From: Streptococcus sp. Marseille-P6264
GTDB lineage: Bacteria; Bacillota; Bacilli; Lactobacillales; Streptococcaceae
DNA: 64,000 nt
Direction of reading: 5' to 3'
NCBI RefSeq assembly: GCF_902460355.1
Contig: NZ_CABPTO010000002.1
Span: 1-64,000, forward strand
Position 1 is the first letter of the stretch. The number at the start of each line of letters is the position of its first letter. Shown one piece after another: positions 47,817-56,509 of this stretch. The notes under the pieces were generated by a model. It was not told the DNA's origin. It saw nothing but the letters and a program-made list of their open reading frames with translations, and did no database searches. The translations under genes were made by a program, and so were the position numbers.

Positions 47817-48390
47817 GCTATTTTAAAAAATAGATTTTATCATGTTTTGTTAGTTAGCTCGCTATCTAGCTTGTCTTTTACTTACTTATCTATTCAGCTC
47901 TATTCAGCAGCAGTTTTCCTTTCCCTGATTATATGTTACAGTCAGAGAAGATGCAGGAGCAATGGGATAGGCTTTTATCCAGAAAGTTGAGCTGGCTGCT
48001 ATTTGGACGGTTCTAGAAAAGCAGAGGACCAAGATCGGAAAGGAGTTCGGATGAAGTTATTTTTGGCTGAAAAAGTGAAACAAAAATAGTCATATATAGT
48101 TGGTTTTGTGGGCACGGAAGAGAGTTCGTGCCTTTTTGCTTGTGTGCTTTCAAGCTAAGCCAGTTCAAAATATGATATACTGGAATAAAGTTATATTAGC
48201 ATGACAAGTTTCACGCTAGGCTACTGTCTTCAAATAGTTATTTTATAAAAGGTAGCCATCCTGACAGTTTGTGCAGCTATTTGACCGGTATGGTTATAGA
48301 AAATAGAATAGCAGTATTCAGCGAGCAAGAATTGTTAACTATTAGACGAATCGTCTTTTCAATGATAGAAGAGCCAATAGAGGAGGAGTT
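47817..48390. other. 574-nt region without a supported gene
   Basis: Between the operon terminator and the first paralogous membrane-protein gene. No ORF over 45 codons with a credible start. It contains one clear intrinsic terminator (48111-48137) with no gene in front of it. Short frames at 47933-48016 (27 residues) and 48290-48418 (42 residues) lack Shine-Dalgarno sequences. Could be decayed coding DNA or host a small RNA ending at 48137. Confidence 0.5.
48111..48137 (+). terminator. orphan intrinsic terminator
   Basis: GGCACG / CGTGCC stem with a ten-base loop and TTTTT. No coding gene lies within 370 nt upstream. Confidence 0.75.
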
Positions 48391-49743
48391 ATGGGAAAGA
48401 GAAATCTGGAAGCTTTGAGGCAGAAGCATCAATCGAAATTCAAGAAGTCTCAAACGAAAAAGCCAGCAAATAGCCAACCATTCTTTCTATCTAAATGGAA
48501 AACCAAGGGAGACCAACATATCAAATCATCTACTGGATTGCAAGAAGCGCAGGGGAGCCCGGAAGAAAATCAAGCTCGTCCTTCCGTTTCGTCTCCATCA
48601 AAAGTGGCATTTCCAATAGAGAGCTCAAGCAATGAGCCGTCTGCCGTCTCTTCGATAGAGGACAAAAACGGCTATGGGGCTAAAACAAGTTCTCAAGACC
48701 AGCCGGTGTTTTCTGAGCAGTTAGAAGGAGTTCAGCAGGTAAAGGAGCCTCTGTCGCTTCTATCACAGAATTTGTTGGAATTAAAGCAGAGGGAGCTGAA
48801 GCGTCTCATTTCTAGTTTAGAATCACTGAAAGCTAAAAAACAAAATCAAGTTTTTCGTGGAAATCAAGTTAGCCAGTCGATGTCAGGCCTTATAACTGAA
48901 GCAAAACAGACCAAGCTTTCTCCGCGAATATCTTCTAATGAGCTTGCTAGAGAGATAGATAAAGTAGAGTTTAAGAAGAAAAAACTAGGAATCTTTTCTA
49001 AGATATGGATGGTGATACTTTTCGTTTTAGGGATTATAGCCTCAATGTATAGCATAGTAGAGCAGTGGAAAAAGAATGCTGATTTAAAACGCATGGAAGA
49101 AGCCGCAGCTATTTCTCGTATGTTAGACTCATATGGAAAGGATCAAGATTTAAAATCTGATAATCGTCCAGAATGGATTGCTAAGAAAGAGGAGTACCAG
49201 TTTCATATCACCTATGATGATATCACTTCTTTATTCTCAGACTTCACTTCATCGGTTCCAAATCTGACAAAGGTCGACGAGGTGGTTGCAAAGTTAGGGA
49301 AAGCTGAGTCTGGTAGGGAAACGAACCAAGATAATCTAATCAAGACAATAGATTTAAACTATTCACAAGCAGGGACAGAGGCGAAAGTTAAGCTCTCTTT
49401 TAAGAGCTATCTTGGTCCTTCTGAAACTCTTAAGTTGGAATCCCTAAAATGTACGCATCTCAGTAGTGCGCAACTGCCTAACCGAAATGCTCAGCTCACT
49501 CGTCAAGATCTTTCTGGTATAGAGAAAGGAAAGACCTATCAAGAGATTGTCAGTCAGTTGGGACTTCCAGAGCGCCTCGATTGGCATGGGGGAATCTTGA
49601 GCTATACGACTTTATCGATTTCTTATCGTTTGGAGGATGGTCAAGAGGTTAGTTTTTCTTTTGAAAAAGATGACACTCAAAGCTATCGACTGAAAGACAG
49701 CTCAGGTTTGGCAAGCGAAGCAGGAGAAGCAAGTGCTCAGTAG
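48391..49743 (+). CDS. single-pass membrane protein of unknown function, paralogue 1
   Basis: 450 residues. A short N-terminal motif, RNLEALRQKHQSKFK (residues 4-18), is followed by a long low-complexity, Ser/Gln/Lys-rich cytoplasmic region (20-190), one membrane helix (about 206-224) and an extracellular part. The latter seems to hold two tandem units: one with VDEVVAKLGKAESG (about 308-321), the other with KTYQEIVSQLGLPERL (about 384-399). Each is followed by beta-strand-like sequence, as in BamE/BLIP-like folds. AGGAGGAG before the ATG. A related gene follows 75 nt later. I do not recognise a function. Confidence 0.75.
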   Translation: MGKRNLEALRQKHQSKFKKSQTKKPANSQPFFLSKWKTKGDQHIKSSTGLQEAQGSPEENQARPSVSSPSKVAFPIESSSNEPSAVSSIEDKNGYGAKTSSQDQPVFSEQLEGVQQVKEPLSLLSQNLLELKQRELKRLISSLESLKAKKQNQVFRGNQVSQSMSGLITEAKQTKLSPRISSNELAREIDKVEFKKKKLGIFSKIWMVILFVLGIIASMYSIVEQWKKNADLKRMEEAAAISRMLDSYGKDQDLKSDNRPEWIAKKEEYQFHITYDDITSLFSDFTSSVPNLTKVDEVVAKLGKAESGRETNQDNLIKTIDLNYSQAGTEAKVKLSFKSYLGPSETLKLESLKCTHLSSAQLPNRNAQLTRQDLSGIEKGKTYQEIVSQLGLPERLDWHGGILSYTTLSISYRLEDGQEVSFSFEKDDTQSYRLKDSSGLASEAGEASAQ

Positions 49744-49818
49744 TGCTTGCCTAGCAGGAAAATCAGCCGTTTGTAGAAAGGGAATGAGCAATCAAGTTTT
49801 TAGTTGATAGGTGAAAAG

Positions 49819-50721
49819 GTGAAAGATAGAAATTTAGAAGCATTGAGGCGGGAGCATAAATCCAAGTTTAAAGCCAGAAACACTTCGTCGGTCAAGAATC
49901 AGCGGGAACGAGGAGTCACCCTCGAACAGACAAAGGAAGAAGAAAGGAAAGAAAAGCAGCGAACAGAGTCAGCAGGCAATCCTAATGGCCAGCTTTTAGC
50001 AAAGTCTGTGCTATCTCGTTATGCCTCACTCTTAGTGATTGCCGCAGTTCTAGTGGGACTGATTAGCTTCTTTATGATGTATATGCGACCAACTTTTAAG
50101 TCAGAAGGAAATCAATCGGCTATATCGTCTGTTAATACTGTTCCGACAGAATCAGAAAATAAGATAGAGATCCTGACGGAGAGTAGTTCACCTTTTATTG
50201 AAGATAATCGAGAGGTAGATTTTCCATTCGAAGAGATATTCGAGTTGATTAAAACTATGAACCAACCTAATGTGTCTCCAGAGGATATCGTTGAGAAGTA
50301 TGGGAAAGCCAGCTCTGGGAGTGTGGATAATCGTGTGGAGAATAGTCAACTGGTACTGCTTTCATACAAGCTAACAGGAAGAAAAGGAGTTGTTAATATG
50401 CGTCTTAGGAGTACTGGAGGAGGAATGGAGCTCTATACGGTATCTGCAGCTTTCTTCCAGAATGCTGGGGAATCAATTACGAAGACAGTTGATGATTATC
50501 GGTCGCTCATTCCCAAAAGTGATCGAGAAGGAATGGAAGTCAAGCAAGCCATAGAAGAACTGGGGATGCCTAAGAGTATTTATGCTCATAAACCGTTTAA
50601 ACAACAAGTTGATTTTTTTAGTATGAGCTATCCAACTAAGGAAAAGATGTCTGTTTCGTTGTATTTTGACGAAGTGAATGGGACTTACCGCCTCACCAGT
50701 ATAATGACAAGTACGGTCTGA
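49819..50721 (+). CDS. single-pass membrane protein of unknown function, paralogue 2
   Basis: 300 residues from GTG 49819 (MKDRNLEALRREHKSKFK). This start aligns with paralogue 1; the frame extends five codons to a TTG. A charged linker, one membrane helix (about 68-88), then an outside region with the same two-unit plan: DIVEKYGKASSG (near 155) and EVKQAIEELGMPKS (near 240), the latter followed by strands ending in YRLTSIMTSTV. The cytoplasmic linker is about 130 residues shorter than in paralogue 1. Tandem duplication is the likely origin; function unknown. Confidence 0.75.
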   Translation: MKDRNLEALRREHKSKFKARNTSSVKNQRERGVTLEQTKEEERKEKQRTESAGNPNGQLLAKSVLSRYASLLVIAAVLVGLISFFMMYMRPTFKSEGNQSAISSVNTVPTESENKIEILTESSSPFIEDNREVDFPFEEIFELIKTMNQPNVSPEDIVEKYGKASSGSVDNRVENSQLVLLSYKLTGRKGVVNMRLRSTGGGMELYTVSAAFFQNAGESITKTVDDYRSLIPKSDREGMEVKQAIEELGMPKSIYAHKPFKQQVDFFSMSYPTKEKMSVSLYFDEVNGTYRLTSIMTSTV

Positions 50722-50772
50722 GAGCCTAGACTGAGAGCACGGATTTTTTCTTAAATAGACAAGGATAGAAGG

Positions 50773-50832
50773 ATGGGAAAAAGAGATAAGGAAGGCCAAT
50801 TTCATCTGAATAAACTCCAAGAGTCCAAATAG
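50773..50832 (+). pseudogene. possible remnant of a third paralogue start
   Basis: A 19-codon frame, MGKRDKEGQFHLNKLQESK, with AAGG 8 nt upstream. It opens like paralogue 1 (MGKRNLEALRQKHQSK) and sits where a third tandem copy would begin, then stops. Could equally be chance. Confidence 0.25.
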
Positions 50833-50955: not shown

Positions 50956-51654
50956 ATGTCTGCTACGAAAATGAATGCTCAAGAAATTATCAAATTCATC
51001 GCTGATGCCAAGAAAAAAACTCCTGTCAAGGTAACCTTCGATGGAGAATTGCACGGAGCGATTCCTTGGTCTGTTGTGAAATTAGGCAATGTTCTTTTTG
51101 GAGACTGGGAAGAAATCAAGCCGCTCCTAGTGAACTTAGAGGAAAATAAGACCTATGTCGTAGAGCAGGATGCCCGCAACTCTGCAGTGCCGCTTTTGGA
51201 CAAGCGCGATATCAATGCCCGTATTGAGCCGGGCGCTATTATCCGTGACCAAGTTGAAATTGGTGATAATGCTGTCATCATGATGGGAGCAGTCATCAAT
51301 ATCGGTGCAGAAATCGGTGCTGGAACCATGATTGATATGGGTGCTATTCTGGGTGGCCGAGCGATTGTCGGCAAAAACAGTCATGTCGGTGCTGGTGCTG
51401 TTCTGGCGGGAGTCATTGAGCCAGCTAGCGCAGAGCCAGTTCGGGTTGGAGACAATGTGCTGATTGGTGCCAATGCAGTTGTGATTGAAGGTGTACAAAT
51501 TGGCAGTGGTTCCGTTGTTGCGGCTGGTGCGATTGTGACCCAGGATGTTCCGGAAAACGTAGTAGTTGCTGGCGTTCCAGCACGAGTTATCAAGACCATT
51601 GACGAGAAGACCCAGCAGAAGACAGCTCTGGAAGACGCTCTGCGTACTCTTTAA
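50956..51654 (+). CDS. dapH: tetrahydrodipicolinate N-acetyltransferase
   Basis: 232 residues. The N-terminal 90 residues are the DapH cap domain. From about 95 on, hexapeptide repeats ([33 protein letters not shown] in outline) build a left-handed beta-helix that ends with [10 protein letters not shown]. Acetylates tetrahydrodipicolinate with acetyl-CoA in the acetylated branch of the lysine pathway. The next gene encodes the matching deacetylase, which supports the assignment. Confidence 0.95.
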
Positions 51655-54532: not shown

Positions 54533-56509
54533 ATGAAGAAGACAATCTTTAAAATTGCTATTTCATTAATGGCAATCATGCTCTTACCTGTCCAAGCTGT
54601 GCAAGCTTGCTGTGGTTTCATTATTGGTCGGCATTTGACCAAGGATGGATCAACACTTTTTGGTCGTACAGAAGACTATCCTTACTACCCGAATGGTGGC
54701 AAGCACAACAAAAACTATGTTGTTGTGGAAGCCAAAAAATATAAGGAAGGCGACCAGATTGTGGATGAGTCCAATGGTTTCACCTATCCACGTGCAGCCA
54801 GCGAAATGAAATATACTGCAACCTATGATTCTGCGCGTGGTGATGGTAGTAACGGTGCTTTTGGAGAACATGGCTTTAATGAAGCAGGTGTTTCTATGTC
54901 ATCCACAGTCACAGCAATCCCAAATAAAAAGGTCCTTGAAAAAGATCCTTTAAAAGCAGATGGCTTGGCAGAAGCTGCTATGCTAGATGTGATTTTGCCT
55001 CGTGCCAAAACAGCTCGTGAAGCAATCGAATTGCTTGGAAAAGTCATCCAAGAAAAGGGCTCTGCTGAAGGGAATACAGTGGTTGTTGCCGATCAAAAAG
55101 AGACTTGGTACATGGAAATCTTGTCTGGCCACCAATACGTAGCCGTGAAAGTGCCAGAAGATAAATACGCGGTATTTGCTAATACTTATTACCTTGGCCA
55201 TGTAGATTTGAAGGACAAAGAAAATGTTATTGCTTCTGAAGATGTAGAGAAAGTAGCCAAAGAAGCAGGAAACTACAAGACAGATAAAGATGGTAATTTC
55301 CATATTGCTAAATCATACGGCCCTGAAAAATATGCAGAAGGCGACCGTTCTCGTACATATGCAGGAATCACACTACTTGATCCAAAATCTAAAATTACTT
55401 ACGAAGATGAGGAGTACGAGCTTTTCCGCTCTCCAACAGATCCAAACAAGAAATTCACTCTTGAAGATGCCTTTGCGATGCAACGGAACCGCTTTGAACA
55501 TTTGAATGGCCGTTTCGTACCAGATGATCAAATTGGCGTTAAGAAACAAGGTGATGATGGAGCAAATGATGCTGTTCGGAAAGATCAGTACAAATACGCT
55601 TTAGGTAATGAAAATGTTATCGATGCCCATGTCTATCAAATTGATCCGAAACTACCAAAATCTTTCGGTGGTAAAGTTTGGCTCGGTTTAGGACCATCAC
55701 GCAACACACCATATGTACCTTTCTATGGTAACGTTCAGGATACTTACAAGGCCTTTAAACCACAGACAGCTACTTATGATCCAAACTCATGGTACTGGAC
55801 AGTATGGCACATTGACCAAATGGCTATCAAGAACCAAGATATCTTTGGAAAAAGTGTTCAGGACCATTGGAAAGAGTTGGAAAAACAATGGATTATTGAG
55901 CAAAAAGCAAGAGATGATAAATATGCTGCTTTGAAAGGAAATGAAGAAGCTGCGAAGGCTGCAGAATCAGAAGTAACCAATGAAGCTTTAGCTAGATCTG
56001 AGCGTCTATTTGGATATTTCAAAAACTATGAGGCTCAAATGCAGGCTCAATTAGCAGCAGCTGGACGTAAAGATGATCCATATAGAGCGTCTCTTCCTGA
56101 TGATTATAAGGAACCATCTACTCCAGAAAAAGAACCTGAAAAGGAATCAGAGAAACCAGCTCCTGGTCAAGAACCAGAGAAGAAGCCAGAAGATCCAGCT
56201 CCTAGTCCAGAGCCAGAAAAAACTCCAGAATCCACAGTTGCAAATGCAGCAGGCAATCCAAATAACCGCTTTGGCTATGCGGCTACAAAAGGTAAGATAA
56301 CAAGTGTCCAAGTCTTTGAGCAACCAAAATCATACGGCGAAGCTCCTAGTCCAGAGCCAGAAAAAACTCCACAAACCACAGTTGTCAATACAGCAGGCAA
56401 TCCAAATAACCGCTTTGGTTATGCGGCTAATTCTGATAATGGAAAAAATTTCAAGAATGTAGAATCATTCCCTAACACTAACTACTCTTCCAACCAAGAC
56501 AATAAGTAA
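54533..56509 (+). CDS. secreted C69 family dipeptidase with C-terminal repeats
   Basis: 658 residues. A signal peptide (1-26, ending VQA) is cut to expose CCGFIIGRHLTKDGSTLFGRTEDY, so a cysteine becomes the N-terminal nucleophile of the Ntn-hydrolase fold (PepD/C69, residues 27-520). The C-terminal 125 residues are Pro/Glu-rich (EPEKESEKPAPGQEPEKKPE) and carry two copies of a unit ending NPNNRFGYAA (near 585 and 630). No LPXTG anchor or wall-binding domain that I recognise, so it is released or held by the tail. AAGGAG Shine-Dalgarno; monocistronic; cre-controlled. Confidence 0.88.
   Translation: MKKTIFKIAISLMAIMLLPVQAVQACCGFIIGRHLTKDGSTLFGRTEDYPYYPNGGKHNKNYVVVEAKKYKEGDQIVDESNGFTYPRAASEMKYTATYDSARGDGSNGAFGEHGFNEAGVSMSSTVTAIPNKKVLEKDPLKADGLAEAAMLDVILPRAKTAREAIELLGKVIQEKGSAEGNTVVVADQKETWYMEILSGHQYVAVKVPEDKYAVFANTYYLGHVDLKDKENVIASEDVEKVAKEAGNYKTDKDGNFHIAKSYGPEKYAEGDRSRTYAGITLLDPKSKITYEDEEYELFRSPTDPNKKFTLEDAFAMQRNRFEHLNGRFVPDDQIGVKKQGDDGANDAVRKDQYKYALGNENVIDAHVYQIDPKLPKSFGGKVWLGLGPSRNTPYVPFYGNVQDTYKAFKPQTATYDPNSWYWTVWHIDQMAIKNQDIFGKSVQDHWKELEKQWIIEQKARDDKYAALKGNEEAAKAAESEVTNEALARSERLFGYFKNYEAQMQAQLAAAGRKDDPYRASLPDDYKEPSTPEKEPEKESEKPAPGQEPEKKPEDPAPSPEPEKTPESTVANAAGNPNNRFGYAATKGKITSVQVFEQPKSYGEAPSPEPEKTPQTTVVNTAGNPNNRFGYAANSDNGKNFKNVESFPNTNYSSNQDNK

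Follow-up and report, generated by a model that had tools for sequence, protein, structure and literature searches.

A tandem array of paralogous single-pass membrane proteins beside dapH in Streptococcus, with predicted BLIP-type heads outside and a conserved N-terminal tip

Two neighbouring genes in a Streptococcus genome encode membrane proteins that begin almost alike and differ over much of their remaining length, which raises the question of what their common start is kept for, what their outer parts bind, and how such genes come to stand side by side. The window, that is, the whole stretch of 64,000 nucleotides that we analyzed (G000:C2:1-64000), belongs to a genome of 2.04 Mb; those of its relatives that carry names are entered as Streptococcus cristatus, S. 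sinensis and S. sanguinis SK49. The two genes, copies 1 and 2, lie head to tail on the + strand in adjacent frames. In the following list, membrane helices are placed at Kyte-Doolittle maxima, and BLIP-fold units are placed from predicted models.

47908-48066, + strand: scar of a response-regulator-like gene (upstream region and first codons; DNA 80-82% similar)
48391-49743, + strand: copy 1, 450 aa, with a tip, a long linker (predicted helix at residues 118-157), one membrane helix and two predicted BLIP-fold units
48400-48441, + strand: putative cytoplasmic tip of copy 1, residues 4-17, RNLEALRQKHQSKF
49003-49059, + strand: membrane helix of copy 1, residues 205-223
49213-49455, + strand: predicted BLIP-fold unit 1 of copy 1, residues 275-355
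49501-49704, + strand: predicted BLIP-fold unit 2 of copy 1, residues 371-438
49819-50721, + strand: copy 2, 300 aa from GTG 49819 (305 aa from TTG 49804)
49828-49869, + strand: putative cytoplasmic tip of copy 2, residues 4-17, RNLEALRREHKSKF
50023-50079, + strand: membrane helix of copy 2, residues 69-87
50227-50454, + strand: predicted BLIP-fold unit 1 of copy 2, residues 137-212
50488-50715, + strand: predicted BLIP-fold unit 2 of copy 2, residues 224-299
50773-50832, + strand: remnant of a copy 3, its first 5 and last 14 codons, 255 missing in frame
50956-51654, + strand: dapH (name from recall), right-hand neighbour of the arrays

It should be noted that the names dapH, pgi, PTS operon, LysR-type regulator, pyrK/pyrD and response regulator stand here for neighbours that we take to be such from a by-eye reading of their translations. 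The start of copy 2 is more probably GTG 49819 than TTG 49804, because the tip is then in register with the other copies.

A sequence-only reading of this locus had described the pair as paralogues with the motifs RNLEALRxxHxSKFK, VAKLGKAESG and VEKYGKASSG, all of which are present as given. In BLASTP comparisons, the N-terminal tips are identical at 14 of 24 residues (E 2e-5) and the outer parts at 23% of 156 columns (E 3e-5); by this measure the similarity is beyond chance, and copies 1 and 2 are paralogues. Each protein has a single strongly hydrophobic stretch in the Kyte-Doolittle profile, in agreement with the one membrane helix proposed for each, and this stretch is preceded by a charged region of 68 residues in copy 2 and 204 residues in copy 1. 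The N-terminus of both proteins is most likely inside, because K/R exceed D/E before the helix (36 versus 21 in copy 1, 18 versus 10 in copy 2) and fall below D/E after it (29 versus 37 and 24 versus 30, respectively).

The outer regions had been described as two BamE/BLIP-like units in each protein, and structure prediction had been proposed as a check. The inputs to AlphaFold2 were alignments of family members (24 and 22 sequences) taken from the window and from the loci L018-L025; because the second window protein was part of each alignment, the models are only partly independent of each other. The mean pLDDT was 72.1 for copy 2 and 64.7 for copy 1; by ten-residue blocks, the heads were mostly at 82-93, with dips to 56-78, and the linkers mostly below 50. 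Both predicted heads consist of two units, each with two helices and four strands (alpha-alpha-beta4), as the earlier description had it, and the predicted folds of the two proteins agree. The top chain for both models was 3D4E (copy 2: Z 13.0, rmsd 4.1, 146 aligned residues, 20% identity; copy 1: Z 12.6, rmsd 3.5, 150 aligned residues, 15% identity), followed in both cases by BLIP, BLIP-I and BLP chains at Z 9.0-10.2 over 141-148 residues; these Z values come from a second structural comparison that was run on the candidates of Foldseek. Foldseek alone gave 3D4E for copy 1 at E 3.1e-5. For copy 2, it gave no match at E ≤ 0.001, its first rows being unrelated folds, and BLIP-superfamily chains appeared at rank 14 (DUF2874) and rank 22 (YpmB). 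BamE chains matched the second unit of copy 1 only, at Z 5.6-8.1 (best 8.1, with 71 residues aligned). Thus, the BLIP half of the proposed resemblance extends to both predicted heads, whereas the BamE half is the poorer one and is confined to that unit; a BLIP-type fold of both outer regions is supported by the models.

Sequence profiles were less informative than the models in naming the two proteins. No usable name came from Pfam, NCBIfam or PADLOC, and no Pfam or NCBIfam model reached its cut-off; the Pfam search extended to E 10, although the HMMER filters drop most matches above 0.1. Neither protein drew the BLIP model PF07467 within this limit of E 10, nor the SmpA_OmlA/BamE and PEPSY models; rows for ATPase_gene1, HAAS and MoaA were below the curated cut-offs and were rejected. 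The best score of DUF3862 (PF12978) was 13.1 bits, for copy 1, under the gathering cut-off of 25 bits, and this model matched 2 of 15 relatives at E ≤ 0.1 (best 6.6e-5). Profile searches against PDB sequences found nothing significant (best E 0.22 in one, no match in the other).

We then turn to the chromosomal setting. We examined 20 loci (the window, L018-L025 and 11 of 14 further stretches), all of which had been fetched for holding family members; the second-site stretches L066, L067 and L074 were excluded from this count. The dapH gene is present in 17 of these loci, and in all 17 the family members run up to it on the same strand, with 65-446 bp between array and dapH. A comparison of copy number between strains, also suggested earlier, gives 2-9 members at these 17 sites when frames, including some fragments, are counted. 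The remaining loci are L061, in which no dapH is reached before the end of the stretch, and L068 and L069, with one relative each, located elsewhere. The pair had further been described as bounded by gene-poor DNA. This holds upstream, where a 655-bp gap contains one terminator-like site and the scar of another cassette, but not downstream, where dapH begins at 50956, 234 bp past copy 2. The gene that the scar resembles is response-regulator-like, as recognized by eye; L024 and L063 carry it intact next to their arrays, together with a kinase-like gene and a gene for a small, secreted-looking protein. Promoter-like and terminator-like sites near the genes were no commoner than in shuffles, and an operon is therefore not claimed.

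Other secreted-looking proteins were seen in this part of the chromosome. The window encodes a large one at 54533-56509, with C-terminal proline-/glutamate-rich repeats and AGNPNNRFGYAA motifs, and relatives of this protein, which differ in their ends, are encoded downstream of the arrays of L023, L024 and L025. A secreted-looking protein that ends in LPKTG lies inside the array at 10019-10906 of L061 (as two frames), 7345-8232 of L062 and 6414-7331 of L070.

Of 197 Streptococcus genomes searched with a profile, 117 matched at E ≤ 0.001 and 80 gave no match; by our own count of the resulting table, 41 of the 197 have four or more family matches. Eight single-match genomes were looked up: the match covers the second-unit region only in five, and most of the head in three. 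Twelve genomes were chosen from the non-matching ones, and dapH was found in eight of them at E ≤ 1e-30. No family member was detected at E ≤ 0.01 in these eight dapH stretches, and in four of the eight, pgi and dapH flank an interval that holds other frames. Because non-matching genomes hold other frames there, the interval by dapH is, on these comparisons, variable in the genus. The window's genome also has a second array, at G000:C1 ~539,000-541,830 (6037-8834 of L074), with LysR-type and pyrK-like flanks and three members, one of which is split by a frame change. A relative in a single frame is found at 6156-7121 of L066.

A frame of 19 codons behind the pair had been suspected to be the start of a third copy. 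An intact copy 3 of 274 aa lies after copy 2 in L018, L019 and L020, which come from sister strains, and the window's DNA aligns with the beginning of this gene as far as 50787 and with its final part from 50788 onwards. In L019 and L020, the interval between these matches is exactly 765 bp, or 255 codons; in L018, where the matches share a few bases, its length may be off by an indel. The suspicion was correct for the first five codons, but the frame also holds the last 14 codons of copy 3, and by its junction the frame 50773-50832 is the leftover of copy 3 after an in-frame deletion. Another remnant of copy 3, at 6940-7314 of L025, arose by a different internal deletion, with the start readable and the end in another frame. 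Judged by these two deletions, in the window and in L025, copy 3 has been lost at least twice.

Exchange between members was studied with seven genes that were compared to reference copies by blastn. Four of these, the second copies of L023, L024, L025 and L021, combine the copy-2 tip with other heads: the first 136-157 bases are those of copy 2 (93-98% identical), and the switch falls within the linker, ahead of the membrane helix; the head is that of copy 3 in L023 (92%) and L024 (76%), whereas in L025 and L021 it resembles SK49 copy 2 (75-77% across its end). The other three, the third copies of L025 and L021 and the fourth copy of L063, have the copy-2 head (74-85%) behind the N-terminus GRKVQREW. 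We also built a tree of 84 heads, after dropping frames below 200 aa and exact repeats; the tree was made by a quick method and contains long branches. The copy-2 head of the window falls into a set of 12 rows (SH-aLRT 95), seven with the N-terminus GRKVQREW (tip-B), four with NLEALR (tip-A) and one with another. Five N-terminal classes require 11 changes on this tree, compared to a shuffled mean of 42.4, which argues that tips mostly follow heads and that swaps are occasional. As far as these alignments go, the arrays turn over by internal deletion and by tip exchange between heads.

The tip itself is the most constant part of these proteins that we compared across copies and strains. Among 10 tips from diverged copies, M1, L9, R10 and F17 are kept in all and H13 in nine, so the N-terminal similarity persists in a broader alignment. 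A 21-position tip profile was searched in 118 genomes and gave 25 matches at E ≤ 2e-6 in 12 genomes (next best E 0.01); each match is at the start of a family member, except for one remnant start (G008, 59-aa frame). In the window's genome, the profile matches copies 1 and 2 only, and the clear matches to the motif among the 118 genomes are thus on the family alone. The tips of copies 1 and 2 are identical at 11 of 14 residues with a dS of 2.9, which is near saturation (dS is undefined in nine other within-genome tip pairs). Recent gene conversion was considered as the cause of the likeness between these two tips and excluded, because their synonymous sites are saturated. Across strains, dN/dS was calculated as a ratio of means, with undefined dS values dropped. 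The values for the tip are 0.09 in copy 1 (28 pairs, 20 codons) and 0.00 in copy 2 (6 pairs, 17 codons), and the tip of copy 3 has no change in 3 pairs. Conservation along the tip has its strongest periodicity at 100 degrees per residue (as high in 132 of 20000 permutations), and the conserved residues make up one helix face. The sequence-only reading had proposed docking of the tip to an intracellular partner; constraint on the protein sequence and one-faced conservation are what docking predicts. The best reading of the tip is a docking helix for a common cytoplasmic partner; alternatively, it may be conserved for targeting or membrane association, which would look the same.

A strongly kept tip would also fit contacts made from inside by envelope regulators of the CopD/TseB kind, whose heads or membrane part would bind the cell's own peptidoglycan synthases or hydrolases, with the tip placing them at the division site. 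CopD of S. pneumoniae, as described in the accessible part of PMC10653890, has the same plan; its two PEPSY domains are placed in the BLIP superfamily by the authors, and it contacts PBP1a and PBP2b independently of its extracellular domains. However, the window's proteins gave no PEPSY row in the Pfam search, and the published GpsB-client motifs, SRxxR(R/K) or (S/R)RS(R/G)(K/S)xR (PMC6335420), are absent from the tips, the only part compared, by eye. Moreover, 2-9 members at dapH, deletions and fusions would be unlike core division machinery, as would the 80 of 197 Streptococcus genomes without a match. We consider this the main rival of an inhibitor function and somewhat unlikely.

Linkers and heads evolve faster than the tip. 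The linker, earlier called variable, has a dN/dS of 0.36 in copy 1 and 0.46 in copy 2, above that of the tip, and the head has 0.27 and 0.33, respectively; the values for copy 3 (3 pairs) are 0.42 for the linker and 0.18 for the head. For whole genes, dN/dS is 0.39 in copy 1, 0.37 in copy 2 and 0.03 in dapH, and dN of the heads is higher than that of dapH, ~8-fold in copy 1 and ~14-fold in copy 2. By these ratios, the heads are under purifying selection overall. The sole stretch above 1, residues 201-245 of copy 1 (48991-49125 of the window), comprises membrane helix and stalk; its dN/dS of 1.28 reflects, in the strain alignment, two alleles of this region. The copy-2 stalk has a dN/dS of 0.92. 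A family in decay, with little present function and kept by recombination at a variable site, could account for the remnants in the window and L025 and for the frame-split member of the second array, but values of 0.37-0.39 for whole copies 1 and 2 and of 0.00-0.09 for their tips indicate constraint, and we regard decay as very improbable.

Within the heads, variability was compared between predicted structural elements in two sets of eight sequences, with inward and outward faces assigned from hydrophobicity and not from coordinates. Strand residues that face outward vary most in both sets: 0.184 in the copy 1 head, compared to 0.122 in loops, 0.084 at inward strand residues and 0.037 in helices, and 0.414 in copy-2 heads, compared to 0.286, 0.251 and 0.195, respectively. 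In each protein, one strand shows the opposite. Permutations reached the excess of outward strand residues over loops and helices in 157 of 5000 cases for copy 1 and in 14 of 5000 for copy-2 heads. BLIP binds via its sheet.

Turnover of the arrays could likewise point to surface receptors, decoys or phage-exclusion proteins that change under pressure from phage or host. In PHROGs, a moron family called BLIP matches copy 1 (E 1.8e-6), and the unnamed phrog_11491 matches 6 of 10 proteins at E ≤ 0.01. On the other hand, tblastn searches of 50,697 phage records gave no match when two members of the family other than the window proteins served as queries, the PADLOC matches were weak (best E 0.0027), and the heads do not show positive selection overall. 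This explanation appears improbable.

A further possibility is that the genes confer immunity to LXG toxins of type VII secretion, as TipC does against TelC. In the accessible text of PMC6193138, TipC is a single-pass protein with an outward inhibitory domain, the concave sheet face of which is the binding site, and paralogues occur in operons; five LXG matches occur in G017 (L019), which bears an array, and four in G020, which has two family matches. However, the LXG model PF04740 has no match in the window's genome (E ≤ 0.001) and none in G008, G016 and G024, each of which carries five or more family matches, and LXG immunity is disfavoured because of these absences. In addition, no toxin gene was recognized by eye among the frames around the arrays, and TipC2 is described, in the same part of that paper, as having no strong resemblance to known structures. 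We find such a role quite improbable.

Paralogy, the position of the array, the change in copy number, deletion remnants, chimeras and the constraint on the tip all follow from comparison of the sequences themselves. Beyond them, we tentatively favour, a little short of an even chance, a BLIP-type protein tethered to the membrane that binds or inhibits an exported partner differing from strain to strain, combined with a shared docking helix inside, because copy number changes, modules are exchanged, heads evolve faster and the tip slowly. The purifying selection on the heads speaks against it, as does the fact that no toxin gene was recognized by eye beside the arrays read. That BLIP-fold proteins of the envelope are partner-binding inhibitors is a proposal made in the available part of PMC2954215. 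Under this tethered-inhibitor reading, copies 1 and 2, together with the lost third, would form a tandem array of single-pass proteins, with N-terminus inside and fold as predicted. Their paired BLIP-fold units would face outward, and the outward sheet face would bind an exported protein in the wall zone, which the head would probably inhibit or neutralize. The one-faced helical tip would give every tip-A member one common docking partner or site in the cytoplasm. Duplication, deletion and head/tip exchange at the linker may renew the specificity of binding, and the outside target would vary between strains. A more general version, in which a few docking helices are recombined with changing BLIP-fold heads into a modular repertoire of strain-specific tethered inhibitors, independent of LXG and directed at variable exported proteins of the cell itself or of its neighbours, seems to us rather unlikely.

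These questions matter because BLIP-fold proteins are widespread in bacterial envelopes and few have known partners, according to the accessible parts of PMC2954215 and PMC10653890. Oral streptococci offer a natural experiment, in that a given tip occurs on several heads and a given head with several tips, at one chromosomal site in close strains. Tip and head are separately testable, which could show whether BLIP-type heads are a changeable binding repertoire. The BLIP fold is already known; no description of the array or the family was found in the freely accessible literature that was searched.

Compared to known systems, TipC is similar in its outward domain on one membrane helix and in the occurrence of several paralogues together; it differs in being encoded with telC and in having, as described in the accessible text of PMC6193138, a different fold, and the window's genome has no LXG match. 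The likeness to BamE/SmpA_OmlA is limited to the second unit of copy 1, without a Pfam match. CopD of S. pneumoniae and TseB of B. subtilis share an inside part, one membrane helix and two BLIP-superfamily domains outside (PMC10653890), a plan that the window proteins are predicted to follow; however, CopD has PEPSY domains and a 16-residue tail, whereas the window proteins have 68 or 204 residues before the helix and occur as tandem copies. The two-unit fold of BLIP, BLIP-I and BLP is common to the window heads, on predicted models; BLIP is secreted with a signal sequence, according to the available part of PMC2954215, whereas the window proteins are membrane-anchored and have a long cytoplasmic part. 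The closest structure, 3D4E, a putative beta-lactamase inhibitor protein of Streptococcus mutans (NP_721579.1), differs from the window proteins in sequence, with 15-20% identity, and has the two-unit BLIP fold in common with their predicted heads.
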